The position numbers and the translations under genes were made by a program. This document shows positions 15,842 through 20,647 of a stretch of DNA of 56,330 nucleotides, in pieces. Under the pieces are notes generated by a model. The model did not search any database, was not told where the DNA came from, and was given only the letters and a program-made list of their open reading frames with translations. This stretch comes from Hallerella porci (GTDB lineage: Bacteria > Fibrobacterota > Fibrobacteria > Fibrobacterales > Fibrobacteraceae), in NCBI RefSeq assembly GCF_003148885.1, contig NZ_QGHD01000014.1, positions 1 through 56,330 on the forward strand. Reading direction: 5' to 3'. Every line of letters begins with the position of its first letter. Within the stretch, counting starts at the first letter, position 1.

Positions 15842-16298
15842 CCGCATTTCCAAGCGCCCGCTCAATTTGAACGCGGATAATTTCTTCGTGGAGCGGACCG
15901 ACTTCGCGGAGTTTAATGGCACCGGTACTGTCGATTAAGAAATGCGTCGGGATGGCGCGCGGGTGTCCGAATTTCTTCATCAGCTGAAAATCCCAATAGA
16001 CGACGGGATACGGAATTTGTTTTTCGCGGACAAATTCTTTCATTATTTTTTCGTCGTCATCTTCGTTGATTCCGATGACATGTAAACCGCACGGAGAATA
16101 GTCAGCATAAATTTTTTTGACGAGAGGAAGTTCTGCGTTGCAGTAGCTGCACCACGATGTGTGAAATACAAAAAGGGTGACGCCTTCGTAACCTTCAATG
16201 CGTTCGGGAATGCGGTCGTAGGCGGCGTCGCTGCAAGCCGCACAGAAAAGCGCCGAAATGAGGGATGCGCCTAAAAGGATTTTTTGAAAGTTGAGCAT
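15822..16298 (-). CDS. TlpA/ResA-like thioredoxin-fold protein, probably envelope-anchored
   Basis: A 158-residue protein. An N-terminal hydrophobic segment ending FCAACSDA could be a signal peptide or a lipoprotein signal with Cys at residue 22, although the -3 residue is unusual. The thioredoxin fold has the active site WCSYC, preceded by VFHTS, and a cis-proline region AIPTHFLIDSTG. TlpA/ResA-type proteins reduce disulfides in the periplasm, for instance in cytochrome maturation. It is convergent with epmA (20-base overlap) and divergent from pilT, whose start is 30 bases away. No other thiol-redox partner is adjacent. Confidence 0.85.
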   Translation of the reverse strand: MLNFQKILLGASLISALFCAACSDAAYDRIPERIEGYEGVTLFVFHTSWCSYCNAELPLVKKIYADYSPCGLHVIGINEDDDEKIMKEFVREKQIPYPVVYWDFQLMKKFGHPRAIPTHFLIDSTGAIKLREVGPLHEEIIRVQIERALGNAATNCRP

Positions 16299-16327
16299 TG
16301 TATAAACAATTTAGTTATATTCAAAAC

Positions 16328-17395
16328 ATGGCTTACAATATTCAAGATCTTCTTTCTGAAATGGTGAAACGCGGCGCTTCGGACTTGCACATTACGGCGG
16401 GAATTCCTCCGATGCTCCGCTTGGCGGGAAAGCTTGCTCCGATGGGAACGGAAACCCTGAAACCGGACGAGACGATGCGCATGACTTACAGTCTGATGAA
16501 CGAACTCCAAAAAAAAGCGTTTGAACAGAACAAGGAATGCGATTTTTCTTTTGGCATTGCGAATCTTGCCCGCTTCCGGGCGAACGCCTATCTGCAGCGC
16601 GGTTGCGTCGCCTTGGCTCTTCGAATTATTCCTCTTGAAATCAAGACGTTTAAGGATTTGGATTTGCCGCCGATTATTGCGGAATTTACCACGCGTCCGT
16701 CGGGACTTGTGCTCGTGACAGGTTCTACAGGTAGCGGTAAATCGACGACTCTTGCGGCGATGATTGATAAAATCAACAAAGAACGCCACGAACATATTTT
16801 GACGATTGAAGACCCGATTGAATTTTTGCACAAACATCAGAATTGTATGGTGAACCAGCGCGAAGTGGGAAACGATACGAAGAGTTTTTCGCAGGCGCTC
16901 AAAATGGCTTTGCGCCAAGACCCCGATATTGTGCTCATCGGCGAAATGCGTGACTTGGAAACGATTCGCGCAGCGTTAACGATTGCAGAAACCGGTCACT
17001 TGACTCTCGCAACACTTCATACAAACTCAGCAGTGCAAACGATTAACCGTATCGTCGATGCCTTCCCGCAAGGAGAACAACAAACGGTGCGAACGCAACT
17101 TTCGTTTGTGCTTCAAGGCGTTGTGTGTCAGATGCTTTTGCCGAAAATCGGCGGCGGTCGCGTCATGTGTTACGAAATCATGAATGTGACTCCGGCAATT
17201 CGCGCTCTTATCCGCGACAATAAATCGCATCAAATCGGATCGATGATTGAAATCGGTCAGAAGTTCGGGATGAACACGATGAATATGCGTCTTGCAGAAC
17301 TCGTGCGCCAAGGAAAGCTCGAACACTTTGAAGCGGTCGCCAAATCTCCGGATCCGAATCAGCTCGAAAAAGAACTTGAGAAATTGGGAGTTTAA
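16328..17395 (+). CDS. pilT: Type IV pilus retraction ATPase PilT
   Basis: A hexameric ATPase of 355 residues that powers pilus retraction. It has an N-terminal PAS-like domain (GASDLHITAGIPPMLR), Walker A GSTGSGKST at 132-140, the Asp box TIEDPIEFLH, Walker B DIVLIGEMRD, and the His box HLTLATLHTNSA. I chose the ATG at 16328 because the PilT family starts with MAYNIQDLL-like sequence; the ORF is open 10 codons further. It is followed after 3 bases by pilC. No pilB or pilin gene is present. Confidence 0.95.
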   Translation: MAYNIQDLLSEMVKRGASDLHITAGIPPMLRLAGKLAPMGTETLKPDETMRMTYSLMNELQKKAFEQNKECDFSFGIANLARFRANAYLQRGCVALALRIIPLEIKTFKDLDLPPIIAEFTTRPSGLVLVTGSTGSGKSTTLAAMIDKINKERHEHILTIEDPIEFLHKHQNCMVNQREVGNDTKSFSQALKMALRQDPDIVLIGEMRDLETIRAALTIAETGHLTLATLHTNSAVQTINRIVDAFPQGEQQTVRTQLSFVLQGVVCQMLLPKIGGGRVMCYEIMNVTPAIRALIRDNKSHQIGSMIEIGQKFGMNTMNMRLAELVRQGKLEHFEAVAKSPDPNQLEKELEKLGV

Positions 17396-17398
17396 TCC

Positions 17399-18601
17399 AT
17401 GCCTGTTTTCCTTTATAAGGCGCAGAATACTCAAGGGAACCAGTTTAATGGGAAAATTGAGGCGAAGGATAAAAACGAAGCGGAATCGCTTTTACGTCGC
17501 AAGCATTTAGTGGTCGAAAGCGTTAAGCGGAAACCGCTCGAACTCAAAATTCAAATCGGTTCGGGCATTAAGTCAAAAGACATTTCCCGCTTTACGCGTA
17601 TGTTCAGCTCGATGACTTCGGCGGGCCTTCCGATGTTACAATGCTTGACGATTCTCGAAGAGCAAATGGATAATCCTGCGATGCGCGATGTGGTGCATAA
17701 ACTCACGATGTCGATTAGCGGCGGTTCTAGCCTTGCCGATGCATTAACGCAGCATCCGAAAGTCTTCGATAAATTGTATTGTAACATGGTCGCAGCCGGT
17801 GAAGCGGGCGGTATTCTCGATGGCATTTTAATGCGTCTCGCTGACTATCAAGAATCCAATGAACGCTTGGTGCGCAAAGTGAAAAAAGCGCTTACGTATC
17901 CGGTGATGGTCGCAGTCGTCGCCGTGGTCGTCGTGATTTTGATGCTTTCGTTCGTGGTGCCTACATTTGCCGCTTCGTTTACAGAACTCGGCGGTGAACT
18001 TCCGGGTCCGACGCAATTCGTGATGGACCTTTCGGATATTATCCGCGATTACGCTGCCTTCTGGATTTTGGGTGCGGTTTCGATTATCGTCGCCTTTAAA
18101 GTCGTGATGAAAGTGCCCAAGCTCCATTTTGCGTTTGACCGCTTTTTGTTAAAAGTGCCGAAAGTGGGCGACTTGCAAATCAAAAGTGCGGTGGCTCGTT
18201 TTAGCCGCACTCTTGGAACTCTTTTGAATGCGGGCGTTTCGGTGACAGAAGCGTTGCAGGTAACAGCGAAAACTTCGGGTAACTCGGTTGTTGAAGCGGC
18301 GATTATGAAAATTGCCGTGGGACTTGCCGGCGGTAAAAGTATCGTAGAACCGATGAAAGAAACCGGAATTTTCCCTGCGATGGTGATTCAAATGGTCGGC
18401 GTGGGCGAAAAGACTGGTCAGTTGGGCTCAATGCTTTTGAAAGTTGCGGACTTCTATGACGAAGAAGTGGATGCGGCAATTGACGCTTTGACTTCGATGA
18501 TGGAACCTCTTATCATGGTGGTGCTCGGCGGCGCAGTCGGCTTCCTCATGATTGCAATGTACATGCCGATGTTCAGTATGTCCGATGCGATTAAAGGCTG
18601 A
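17399..18601 (+). CDS. pilC: Type IV pilus/type II secretion inner-membrane platform protein PilC
   Basis: A 400-residue polytopic protein of the PilC/GspF family. It starts with MPVFLYKAQNTQG, has the two cytoplasmic T2SSF repeats (about 70-190 and 270-395), and TM segments around 170-195, 220-240 and 370-395. TSAGLPMLQCL in the first repeat and LLNAGVSVTEAL in the second are the matching repeat motifs. It couples the PilB/PilT motors to the pilus. It forms an operon with pilT and is closed by the terminator at 18644. Confidence 0.94.
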   Translation: MPVFLYKAQNTQGNQFNGKIEAKDKNEAESLLRRKHLVVESVKRKPLELKIQIGSGIKSKDISRFTRMFSSMTSAGLPMLQCLTILEEQMDNPAMRDVVHKLTMSISGGSSLADALTQHPKVFDKLYCNMVAAGEAGGILDGILMRLADYQESNERLVRKVKKALTYPVMVAVVAVVVVILMLSFVVPTFAASFTELGGELPGPTQFVMDLSDIIRDYAAFWILGAVSIIVAFKVVMKVPKLHFAFDRFLLKVPKVGDLQIKSAVARFSRTLGTLLNAGVSVTEALQVTAKTSGNSVVEAAIMKIAVGLAGGKSIVEPMKETGIFPAMVIQMVGVGEKTGQLGSMLLKVADFYDEEVDAAIDALTSMMEPLIMVVLGGAVGFLMIAMYMPMFSMSDAIKG

Positions 18602-18643
18602 TTAATCGCTTAAATTGATCGATTAAAATCATTTCAATTTTTC

Positions 18644-18684
18644 AAAACGGCTCGTTTTTTCAAAAAACGGGCTGTTTTCTTTTT
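18644..18684 (+). terminator. Rho-independent terminator after pilC
   Basis: AAAACGGCTCGTTTTTT (18644-18660) pairs with AAAAAACGGGCTGTTTT across a single-base turn, with two G-U pairs, and is followed by CTTTTT. It separates the pilT-pilC transcript from the sigma-54 promoter immediately downstream. Confidence 0.75.
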
Positions 18685-18699
18685 GGCACGCATTTTGCA
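18684..18699 (+). promoter_or_regulatory. Sigma-54 (-24/-12) promoter of spoVG
   Basis: TGGCACG-CATT-TTGCA matches the sigma-54 consensus TGGCACG-N4-TTGCA at every stated position, with exactly 10 bases between the GG and GC cores. Transcription would start near 18710. That leaves about 34 bases of leader containing the AAGGAG of spoVG. I did not identify an enhancer-binding site upstream, where the pilC terminator lies. Confidence 0.8.
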
Positions 18700-18743
18700 T
18701 TTATGCGATTGCCCTAATGTTGGGGTTTTTAAGGAGTGCATTT

Positions 18744-19094
18744 ATGCAAATGAAAAAGAACGTCACCGAAAAACAGACCGCAGTCAAGTCTTTGCCGAAG
18801 ACTTCGGAATTTGATTGTTTGGTCGTCACCAATGTCCGCGTATTTCCGTTTAAGGAAGGCGTCAATATGGGACATATCAAAGCCTTGGCAAAGGTTGTGC
18901 TGAACGATCAAATGCAGTTGACAGGTCTCCGCGTCGTCGATGGGGAAAACGGACTTTTCGTCGGTTATCCGAATGATCCCTTTTACAAGGGCGATGAATA
19001 TCGCAGCATTTTCTTTCCGATTACCAAAGAATGCCGCGAACACATCGAAAATTGCATCTTGGAAAAGTACCAGGAAATGATCGCAGCAGCTTAA
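18744..19094 (+). CDS. spoVG: SpoVG-family regulator
   Basis: A 116-residue protein with the SpoVG fold: VTNVRVFPF, then LKALAKVVL-like (IKALAKVVLNDQMQLTGLRVVDG), then FVGYPNDPF and the C-terminal helix ITKECREHIENCILEKY. Family members bind nucleic acids and act as global or division regulators. The start at 18744 has AAGGAG 7 bases upstream; the ORF is open 9 codons further. The gene follows the sigma-54 promoter and is followed after 11 bases by comM, so the two probably share the transcript. The C-terminal basic extension seen in some homologues is short here. Confidence 0.9.
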   Translation: MQMKKNVTEKQTAVKSLPKTSEFDCLVVTNVRVFPFKEGVNMGHIKALAKVVLNDQMQLTGLRVVDGENGLFVGYPNDPFYKGDEYRSIFFPITKECREHIENCILEKYQEMIAAA

Positions 19095-19105
19095 GGAATT
19101 GCAAC

Positions 19106-20647
19106 GTGTTTCAGAGAATTCGCACAAGTTGTCTTTTGGGTATTCAAGCAATCCCAGTAAATGTCGAAGTGGATTCTTCGGCGGGTCTTCCCGGATTCAC
19201 TTTGGTAGGTTTACCGGATAATGCTGTTCGCGAATCTCGGGAACGCGTTGTTTCTAGTATTCGAAGTTCAGGTTATGCGGCTGCAGGCAGCCGGATGACG
19301 GTGAATTTATCGCCCGCAGATTTGAAGAAAGAGGGGACTTCTTTAGATTTGCCGTTAGCGATGGGAATGTTAATTGTGAGTGGAGAAATCCCCGCAGACA
19401 ATCCCGAAAAATTTGTGTTTATGGGGGAACTTTCTTTAGATGGAAAAGTCAAAGCGGTCCGCGGTGTTTTATCGGTCGCGATGAGCCTTTCTAAAGAGAA
19501 TGATATTTTTGTGGTGCCGAGGGAAAATGTAGCCGAAGCGAGTTTGGTGGAAGGACTTGCGGTGATTGGCGTCTCCACACTTTCGGAGTGTATCGAGGCG
19601 GTTGCGCCCGAGTCTGGGGTGACTCCGTTACGGTCGCAAGGAATTTCACATCGAAATTCTGTTGTGGATTCCTCGGCACCGGATTTTCGTTCTGTGGTGG
19701 GAATGGAAGGGGTAAAACGTGCGTTAGAAATTGCGGCGGCGGGCGCGCATAATTTTTTATTAGTGGGTTCACCGGGTTCGGGGAAGACTTTTAGCGCGCG
19801 ATGTCTCCCGGGAATTTTACCGCCGATGACGGATGAAGAAATTTTGGAATGTACGCAGATTTATTCATCGATGCGGGTTTTAGGGGCTGCAGGAACAGAA
19901 CGCTTTTTGAATCGTCGGCCGTTTCGTTCTCCGCATCATTCTTCATCGATGGTCGCACTCGTGGGGGGAGGAGCGCATTTGCGCCCAGGGGAAGCGAGTT
20001 TAGCGCACAATGGCGTCTTATTTTTGGATGAATTGCCGGAATTTAATCGCAACGTATTGGAAGCTTTGCGGGAACCGATGGAAGAAGGAATTATCCGCAT
20101 TAGTCGTGCTTGCGGAACGGTTTCGTGGCCTGCGCGATTTATGATGGGGGCTGCGATGAATCCGTGTCCATGCGGTTATTCGATGGATCCGAAACGCGAT
20201 TGCACTTGTTTGCCCGATGCCGTTCGCCGTTATCGTCAACGGATTTCGGGACCGATGCTCGATCGCATTGATATTCAGGTGGCGGTGCCTTCTACCGATC
20301 CGCAGAGTTTGATGCAAAAGAAAGCGGGGGAATCTTCGGCAGAAATTCGGGAGCGGGTAATTGCCGCAAGAAATTTGCAGCGGCGACGTTTTGGGAAAAA
20401 AATTCGTGCGAATGCTGAAATGTCTAGCGATGCGACGAAAGCTTTTGCGCAGATGAGTACCGCGACAGAACATTTTGCAGTAGCCGCCGCCGATAAAATG
20501 CAGTTAAGTGCCCGCGGCTATTATCGGATGTTAAAAGTTGCCCGCAGCATCGCTGACTTGCGCATTGCGAAAGACGGTGAAAACGCAGTCGATGCTCCCG
20601 TAGAAAATGGCGATGTTGCAGAAGCTTTGCGATACCGAGCTTTTTAA
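19106..20647 (+). CDS. comM: YifB/ComM-type Mg-chelatase-like AAA+ ATPase
   Basis: A 513-residue protein starting at GTG 19106, with AAGGA 8 bases upstream. The N-terminal ChlI-like domain (VNVEVDSSAGLPGFTLVGLPDNAVRESRERV) precedes an AAA+ module with Walker A GSPGSGKT, Walker B LFLDELPEF, and the helix-2 insert RPFRSPHHSSS. A C-terminal Mg-chelatase domain contains LSARGYYRMLKVARSIADL and a zinc-type CPCGYSMDPKRDCTC segment. ComM is a branch-migration helicase that extends D-loops during natural transformation. Its position behind pilT, pilC and spoVG is consistent with a DNA-uptake link, but that is inference. Confidence 0.92.
   Translation: MFQRIRTSCLLGIQAIPVNVEVDSSAGLPGFTLVGLPDNAVRESRERVVSSIRSSGYAAAGSRMTVNLSPADLKKEGTSLDLPLAMGMLIVSGEIPADNPEKFVFMGELSLDGKVKAVRGVLSVAMSLSKENDIFVVPRENVAEASLVEGLAVIGVSTLSECIEAVAPESGVTPLRSQGISHRNSVVDSSAPDFRSVVGMEGVKRALEIAAAGAHNFLLVGSPGSGKTFSARCLPGILPPMTDEEILECTQIYSSMRVLGAAGTERFLNRRPFRSPHHSSSMVALVGGGAHLRPGEASLAHNGVLFLDELPEFNRNVLEALREPMEEGIIRISRACGTVSWPARFMMGAAMNPCPCGYSMDPKRDCTCLPDAVRRYRQRISGPMLDRIDIQVAVPSTDPQSLMQKKAGESSAEIRERVIAARNLQRRRFGKKIRANAEMSSDATKAFAQMSTATEHFAVAAADKMQLSARGYYRMLKVARSIADLRIAKDGENAVDAPVENGDVAEALRYRAF

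Follow-up and report, generated by a model that had tools for sequence, protein, structure and literature searches.

Gene content and promoter of the spoVG locus

The window, by which we mean the whole 56,330-nucleotide stretch of Hallerella porci contig NZ_QGHD01000014.1 that was analysed, contains a pilT-like ATPase gene (16298..17395) and a gene for a pilC-like T2SSF protein (17399..18601), followed by spoVG (18744..19094, 116 aa) and comM/yifB (19106..20647, GTG start), all on the + strand. The spoVG product belongs to the SpoVG family by the curated cut-off of Pfam PF04026 (71.1 bits against 29.6), while its score with the NCBIfam SpoVG equivalog model is below the cut-off (61.7 against 108). 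Its likely start codon is the ATG at 18744, which stands behind a ribosome-binding site, AAGGAG (18731..18736, + strand), read directly from the sequence. For the downstream gene, the TIGR00368 score (547 bits against a cut-off of 362) together with the Pfam domains Mg_chelatase, ChlI and Mg_chelatase_C identifies the product as ComM/YifB, which is a widespread protein. The comM start at 19106 lies 11 nt past the spoVG stop, the same gap as in the original prediction.

Between pilC and spoVG there is a terminator-like hairpin (18644..18678, + strand) with a folding energy of -17.8 kcal/mol (z -5.7), and its T tail extends into the -24 box of a sigma-54 promoter, TGGCACGCATTTTGCA (18684..18699, + strand). 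The hairpin is genuine, and the box does lie directly after the pilC terminator as had been proposed. Read directly, the box has GG at 18685-18686 and GC at 18697-18698, i.e. the core GG-N10-GC within TGGCAC-N5-TTGCW, and the predicted TGGCACG-N4-TTGCA is present ahead of spoVG and conserved across relatives. Transcription is expected to start at about 18709-18711 (near 18710). The distance of 34 bases that had been given from the box to spoVG does not hold for the box itself, since the ATG is 44 nt past it, and about 34 nt is the distance from the expected start point. No sigma-70-like promoter was found in the pilC-spoVG intergenic stretch.

For the motif TGGCACNNNNNTTGCW, the spoVG box (18684-18699) is the one match with zero mismatches in the 56-kb window. 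Matches with 2 mismatches number 27, against 27.3 by chance, so the sequence match by itself is little proof, and it is the conservation of the site that decides whether the promoter is taken as genuine.

Conservation of the promoter with spoVG and comM

The spoVG gene was found in 59 of 60 related genomes, and we retrieved its flanking DNA and searched up to 250 nt upstream for sigma-54 sites with at most one mismatch, with shuffled sequences as control. It turned out that 47 of the 49 comM-linked spoVG loci carry such a site (0.6 of 49 expected from the shuffles), and 37 of them carry an exact one, while none of the 12 spoVG paralogues without comM linkage has a site. The site occurs in families f1, f2 and f3, whatever gene is located upstream; the two comM-linked loci of family f4 have none. 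Among the named Fibrobacter genomes, the exact site precedes 14 of 15 spoVG loci. Conservation upstream of spoVG in relatives, one of the checks suggested with the original prediction, thus bears out a sigma-54 promoter driving spoVG, and by this conservation the box is a functional sigma-54 promoter. The comM gene is very probably under it together with spoVG, as had been supposed from the 11-nt gap, since both the linkage and the promoter are conserved in families f1-f3.

The suggested link to pilT-pilC did not survive the comparison. The pilT-like gene is upstream of spoVG in some genera only and is a neighbour outside the module, and pilC is upstream in the H. porci genus and a few others only, while the promoter stays with spoVG-comM. 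Most relatives have other genes upstream of spoVG, so the pilT-pilC connection is incidental and was dropped.

A helically phased repeat array upstream of the promoter

Upstream of the promoter, a helically phased array (18589..18630, + strand) contains GATTAA at 18589, 18600 and 18621, i.e. copies 11 and 21 nt apart, which stand 95, 84 and 63 nt before the -24 box and overlap the last codons and the stop of pilC. The repeats resemble activator sites, are spaced by a helical turn and lie about 60-95 nt ahead of the spoVG promoter. The H. porci array is more degenerate than those of its relatives, with one 3-mismatch match to the two-unit consensus, and no GATTAA array was found at the other exact sigma-54 sites of its genome.

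When the loci were aligned by their promoters, three types of array appeared: a TGATTAATCAC-type in genera g1-g5 and others, a GTTTAAACACT-type in genus g6 and a TTCAC-type in family f3. In the autocorrelation of the arrays, a lag of 10 or 11 was the best or second best in every lineage tested (z 2.1-12.2), with lag 10 best in a small mixed group (z 3.0); a periodicity of 10-11 nt was absent at grpE promoters. The distances from repeat to -24 box rise in steps of about 11 nt (58-63, 69-73, 79-85 and 93-95), and the last repeat is located 58-63 or 69-73 nt from the box across genera, two positions about one helical turn apart.

RpoN and a candidate activator

The H. porci genome (2.85 Mb) encodes one rpoN and five full sigma-54 activators (enhancer-binding proteins, EBPs) with GAFTGA. 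Both had been named as things to look for, and the finding that would have spoken against the promoter, a genome lacking rpoN, does not apply. Orthologues in nearly all genera of family f1 were found for just two of the five, L004 and L006. L006 (contig C4 of the genome, about 107.9 kb) consists of an AAA+ domain and a Fis-type HTH, with neither a receiver nor a GAF domain. In the g6 genome G030 (90% complete), only orthologues of L006 and of L004, the chaperone activator discussed below, were detected, and both types of promoter are present.

The recognition helix of L006 is SRGSLCYQ in genera with GATTAATC-type arrays, SRS[GS]LYYK (SRSGLYYK or SRSSLYYK) in g6 and SRRGLQYR in genome G043 of f3, while in the L004 orthologues the helix is nearly constant, likewise their enhancer. 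L006, whose recognition helix differs between the array types, a covariation that amounts to one or two evolutionary changes among few sequences, is the best candidate for a putative activator reading the spoVG-comM array. In G010 (g6, 94% complete) and G041 (f3, 100% complete), array and promoter are present and no L006 was detected, and no conserved neighbour or partner gene that would hint at a signal was found beside L006. The other activators considered for spoVG rank below L006: L002 adjoins a gltD-like gene and probably serves nitrogen functions, and L003 and L005 are patchy in the family.

Array and sigma-54 site at other genes

We searched the 15 genomes with a GATTAATC-type array (genera g1-g5 and g7) for exact two-unit matches. 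Generally these belong to spoVG, and two further modules were found in which array and sigma-54 site precede another gene, namely a Gp49/HTH toxin-antitoxin-like pair in G029 (g2) and a PDDEXK_2 gene of the PD-(D/E)XK transposase family in G002.

In g6, the GTTTAAACACT-type array occurs at at least two loci in most genomes and at up to about nine in G036, and in 24 of the 25 distinct modules with a sigma-54 site, the distance between array and site is 62-64 nt, a fixed spacing which may in some copies be owed to recent duplication. The targets include spoVG-comM, Rpn-like nuclease genes, a ParE-like toxin and GNAT proteins, and besides these an ORF6N protein, a shikimate-kinase-like protein, an HU-domain protein and a RecQ helicase. 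PADLOC names few of them, ORF6N as candidate PDC-S05 and RecQ as DpdF-like, and the latter label may reflect just shared helicase domains. According to PMC10327210, Rpn proteins form toxin-antitoxin systems directed against phage, and the types of the g6 module genes suggest a role in recombination or defence. The recurrence of array and sigma-54 site in this one genus points to an undescribed regulon. In G036, near-identical modules precede Rpn-like genes at L341, L359 and L340, two of them in tandem on one contig, and these modules may be duplicated or mobile.

A separate sigma-54 branch for chaperones

Exact sigma-54 sites also precede dnaK, grpE, groES, hsp20, clp and htpG in the H. porci genome (L092, L093, L094, L096, L091 and L086). 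At dnaK, grpE, groES, clp and hsp20, the palindrome GTTTCAnnnTGAAAC is found 56-78 nt upstream, with 10-12 of 12 positions matched. At htpG, a perfect GTTTCAnnnTGAAAC palindrome was seen 115 nt downstream of the sigma-54 site (L240:3507, contig C3). In the f1 relatives, sigma-54 sites with the palindrome are found before groES and grpE at all loci examined. HrcA is absent from families f1, f2, f7 and f9 and present in most genomes of f3-f6 and f8, several of which have groES with CIRCE. This indicates that control of the Fibrobacteraceae chaperones passed from HrcA/CIRCE to sigma-54, which may thus serve as the heat-shock sigma factor of the family.

NtrC-like activators orthologous to L004 (L004:1027-2526 in H. 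porci) directly follow dnaJ in G011 and G043 (L215:3462-4928 and L219:10955-12373) and are near dnaJ in others, which makes the L004 type a candidate activator of the chaperone regulon. Their receiver-like domain is degenerate and lacks the conserved phospho-acceptor aspartate, so a chaperone-sensing input is plausible rather than phosphorylation.

The palindrome was not found at spoVG-comM, where the best match among 47 loci is 9 of 12, and the 159 kb of spoVG loci contain no match of 11 or more. In the absence of this chaperone enhancer, spoVG-comM is placed on a separate sigma-54 branch, and its assignment to the heat-shock regulon was abandoned.

Proposed mechanism and alternatives

The reading that we prefer, with a probability of about 0.62, is that spoVG and comM form an operon transcribed from the sigma-54 promoter through an AAA+ activator bound to the array, most likely L006, and that they are the core of a regulon for DNA handling or defence. 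The two genes would share one mRNA from the promoter at 18684-18699, which would be opened by a hexameric AAA+ activator on the tandem array (18589-18630), about 60-95 nt upstream. L006, a sensorless EBP, is the protein presumed to bind there, and as it lacks both a receiver and a GAF domain, the switch would depend on how much of it is present or on a partner protein, not on phosphorylation. In g6, the same module would control further recombination, nuclease and toxin-type genes, which would make spoVG-comM the conserved core of such a regulon and suggests its physiological role. Compared with the original prediction, the sigma-54 promoter and the operon stand, the connection with pili falls away, a part in natural transformation, suggested by the homology of ComM, is possible, and the array, the g6 regulon and the chaperone branch were not part of it.

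It is also conceivable, though unlikely, that the promoter depends on sigma-54 and the array is read by another protein, either a different EBP or SpoVG regulating its own gene, and the EBP would then act in solution or at a site elsewhere. In favour of it, DNA binding with diverged consensus sequences is described for SpoVG homologues (PMC3688583), which would allow an array specific to a lineage to follow its SpoVG, and L006 was not detected in some genomes having the array. Against this, array and sigma-54 site are also found together before genes that have nothing to do with spoVG, with spacing and helical phase nearly constant, as expected of an enhancer, and the recognition helix of L006 differs where the array differs.

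That spoVG-comM is a plain member of the chaperone regulon is very improbable: the exact sites before the chaperone genes of H. porci would fit such membership, but the GTTTCAnnnTGAAAC palindrome is never found at spoVG-comM, and in f3 the sigma-54 site is retained at spoVG, whereas groES has CIRCE or HrcA in place of one. Hardly credible is a chance, non-functional box, with spoVG transcribed by sigma-70 or from pilC. The chance-level count of 2-mismatch matches in the window would agree with it, and read-through into spoVG could also occur, but the contrast of 47 of 49 against 0 of 12 loci, the terminator separating pilC from spoVG and the lack of a sigma-70-like promoter in the intergenic stretch all argue for the sigma-54 promoter.

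Extended to the phylum, our preferred reading would give a Fibrobacterota sigma-54 regulon for DNA recombination and defence against phage or foreign DNA. Its conserved core would be spoVG-comM, and Rpn-like nucleases, toxin-type genes, RecQ and ORF6N proteins would be lineage-specific members; a single sensorless activator would switch the regulon, with its site code rewritten in g6. We put this forward tentatively, at somewhat below even odds.

Relation to known systems

The functions usually associated with sigma-54 are nitrogen, motility, pili and the cell exterior. The system described here is like the sigma-54 promoters with AAA+ EBPs of the NtrC, PspF and NorR types in its -24/-12 boxes, upstream enhancer array, rpoN and GAFTGA activators. 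It differs from them in its target, spoVG-comM, and in its array of three to four short, helically phased direct repeats. With its AAA+ domain and Fis-type HTH and without an N-terminal sensor domain, L006 is like the sensorless activators of the PspF type. However, it reaches 200 bits with the NCBIfam PspF model, below the cut-off of 444, no psp genes occur in the flanks examined, and the regulon is different.

In Bacillus and Staphylococcus, spoVG is under sigma-H and sigma-B, as cited in PMC3688583. An alternative sigma factor is thus used likewise, whereas here it is sigma-54 with an enhancer, in an operon with comM. Single heat-shock genes are known under a two-component activator, HsfA/HsfB in the case of lonD of Myxococcus xanthus (Ueki and Inouye 2002, as cited in PMC9548883), or under sigma-54, in the case of ibpB of E. 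coli with its sigma-54 promoter (PMC4316790). In the chaperone branch described here, sigma-54 sites with a common enhancer extend to the whole set of chaperone genes. A literature search with few subscription papers in its scope returned no report of sigma-54 control of spoVG, in agreement with the remark that spoVG is not usually known as a sigma-54 target, and none for Fibrobacter chaperones. The parts are known, and the regulon, the enhancer and the proposed activator appear to be new as far as the literature was searched.

By its conservation, sigma-54 appears to switch the SpoVG-ComM operon across a bacterial class, and in g6 it appears to switch mobile nuclease and toxin-type genes too. 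The signal and the role of SpoVG and ComM beyond Bacillus and Vibrio become testable.

Other sigma-54 sites of the genome

Sigma-54 sites also precede glnB (L083) and a glutamine-synthetase-like gene (L089), and the GAF-domain activator L002 follows the gltD-like gene; this group is probably a nitrogen branch. Besides, a sigma-54 site is located 58 nt before a gene for a sigma-70-family factor (L098, from 32926 on contig C21), where a sigma cascade is possible.
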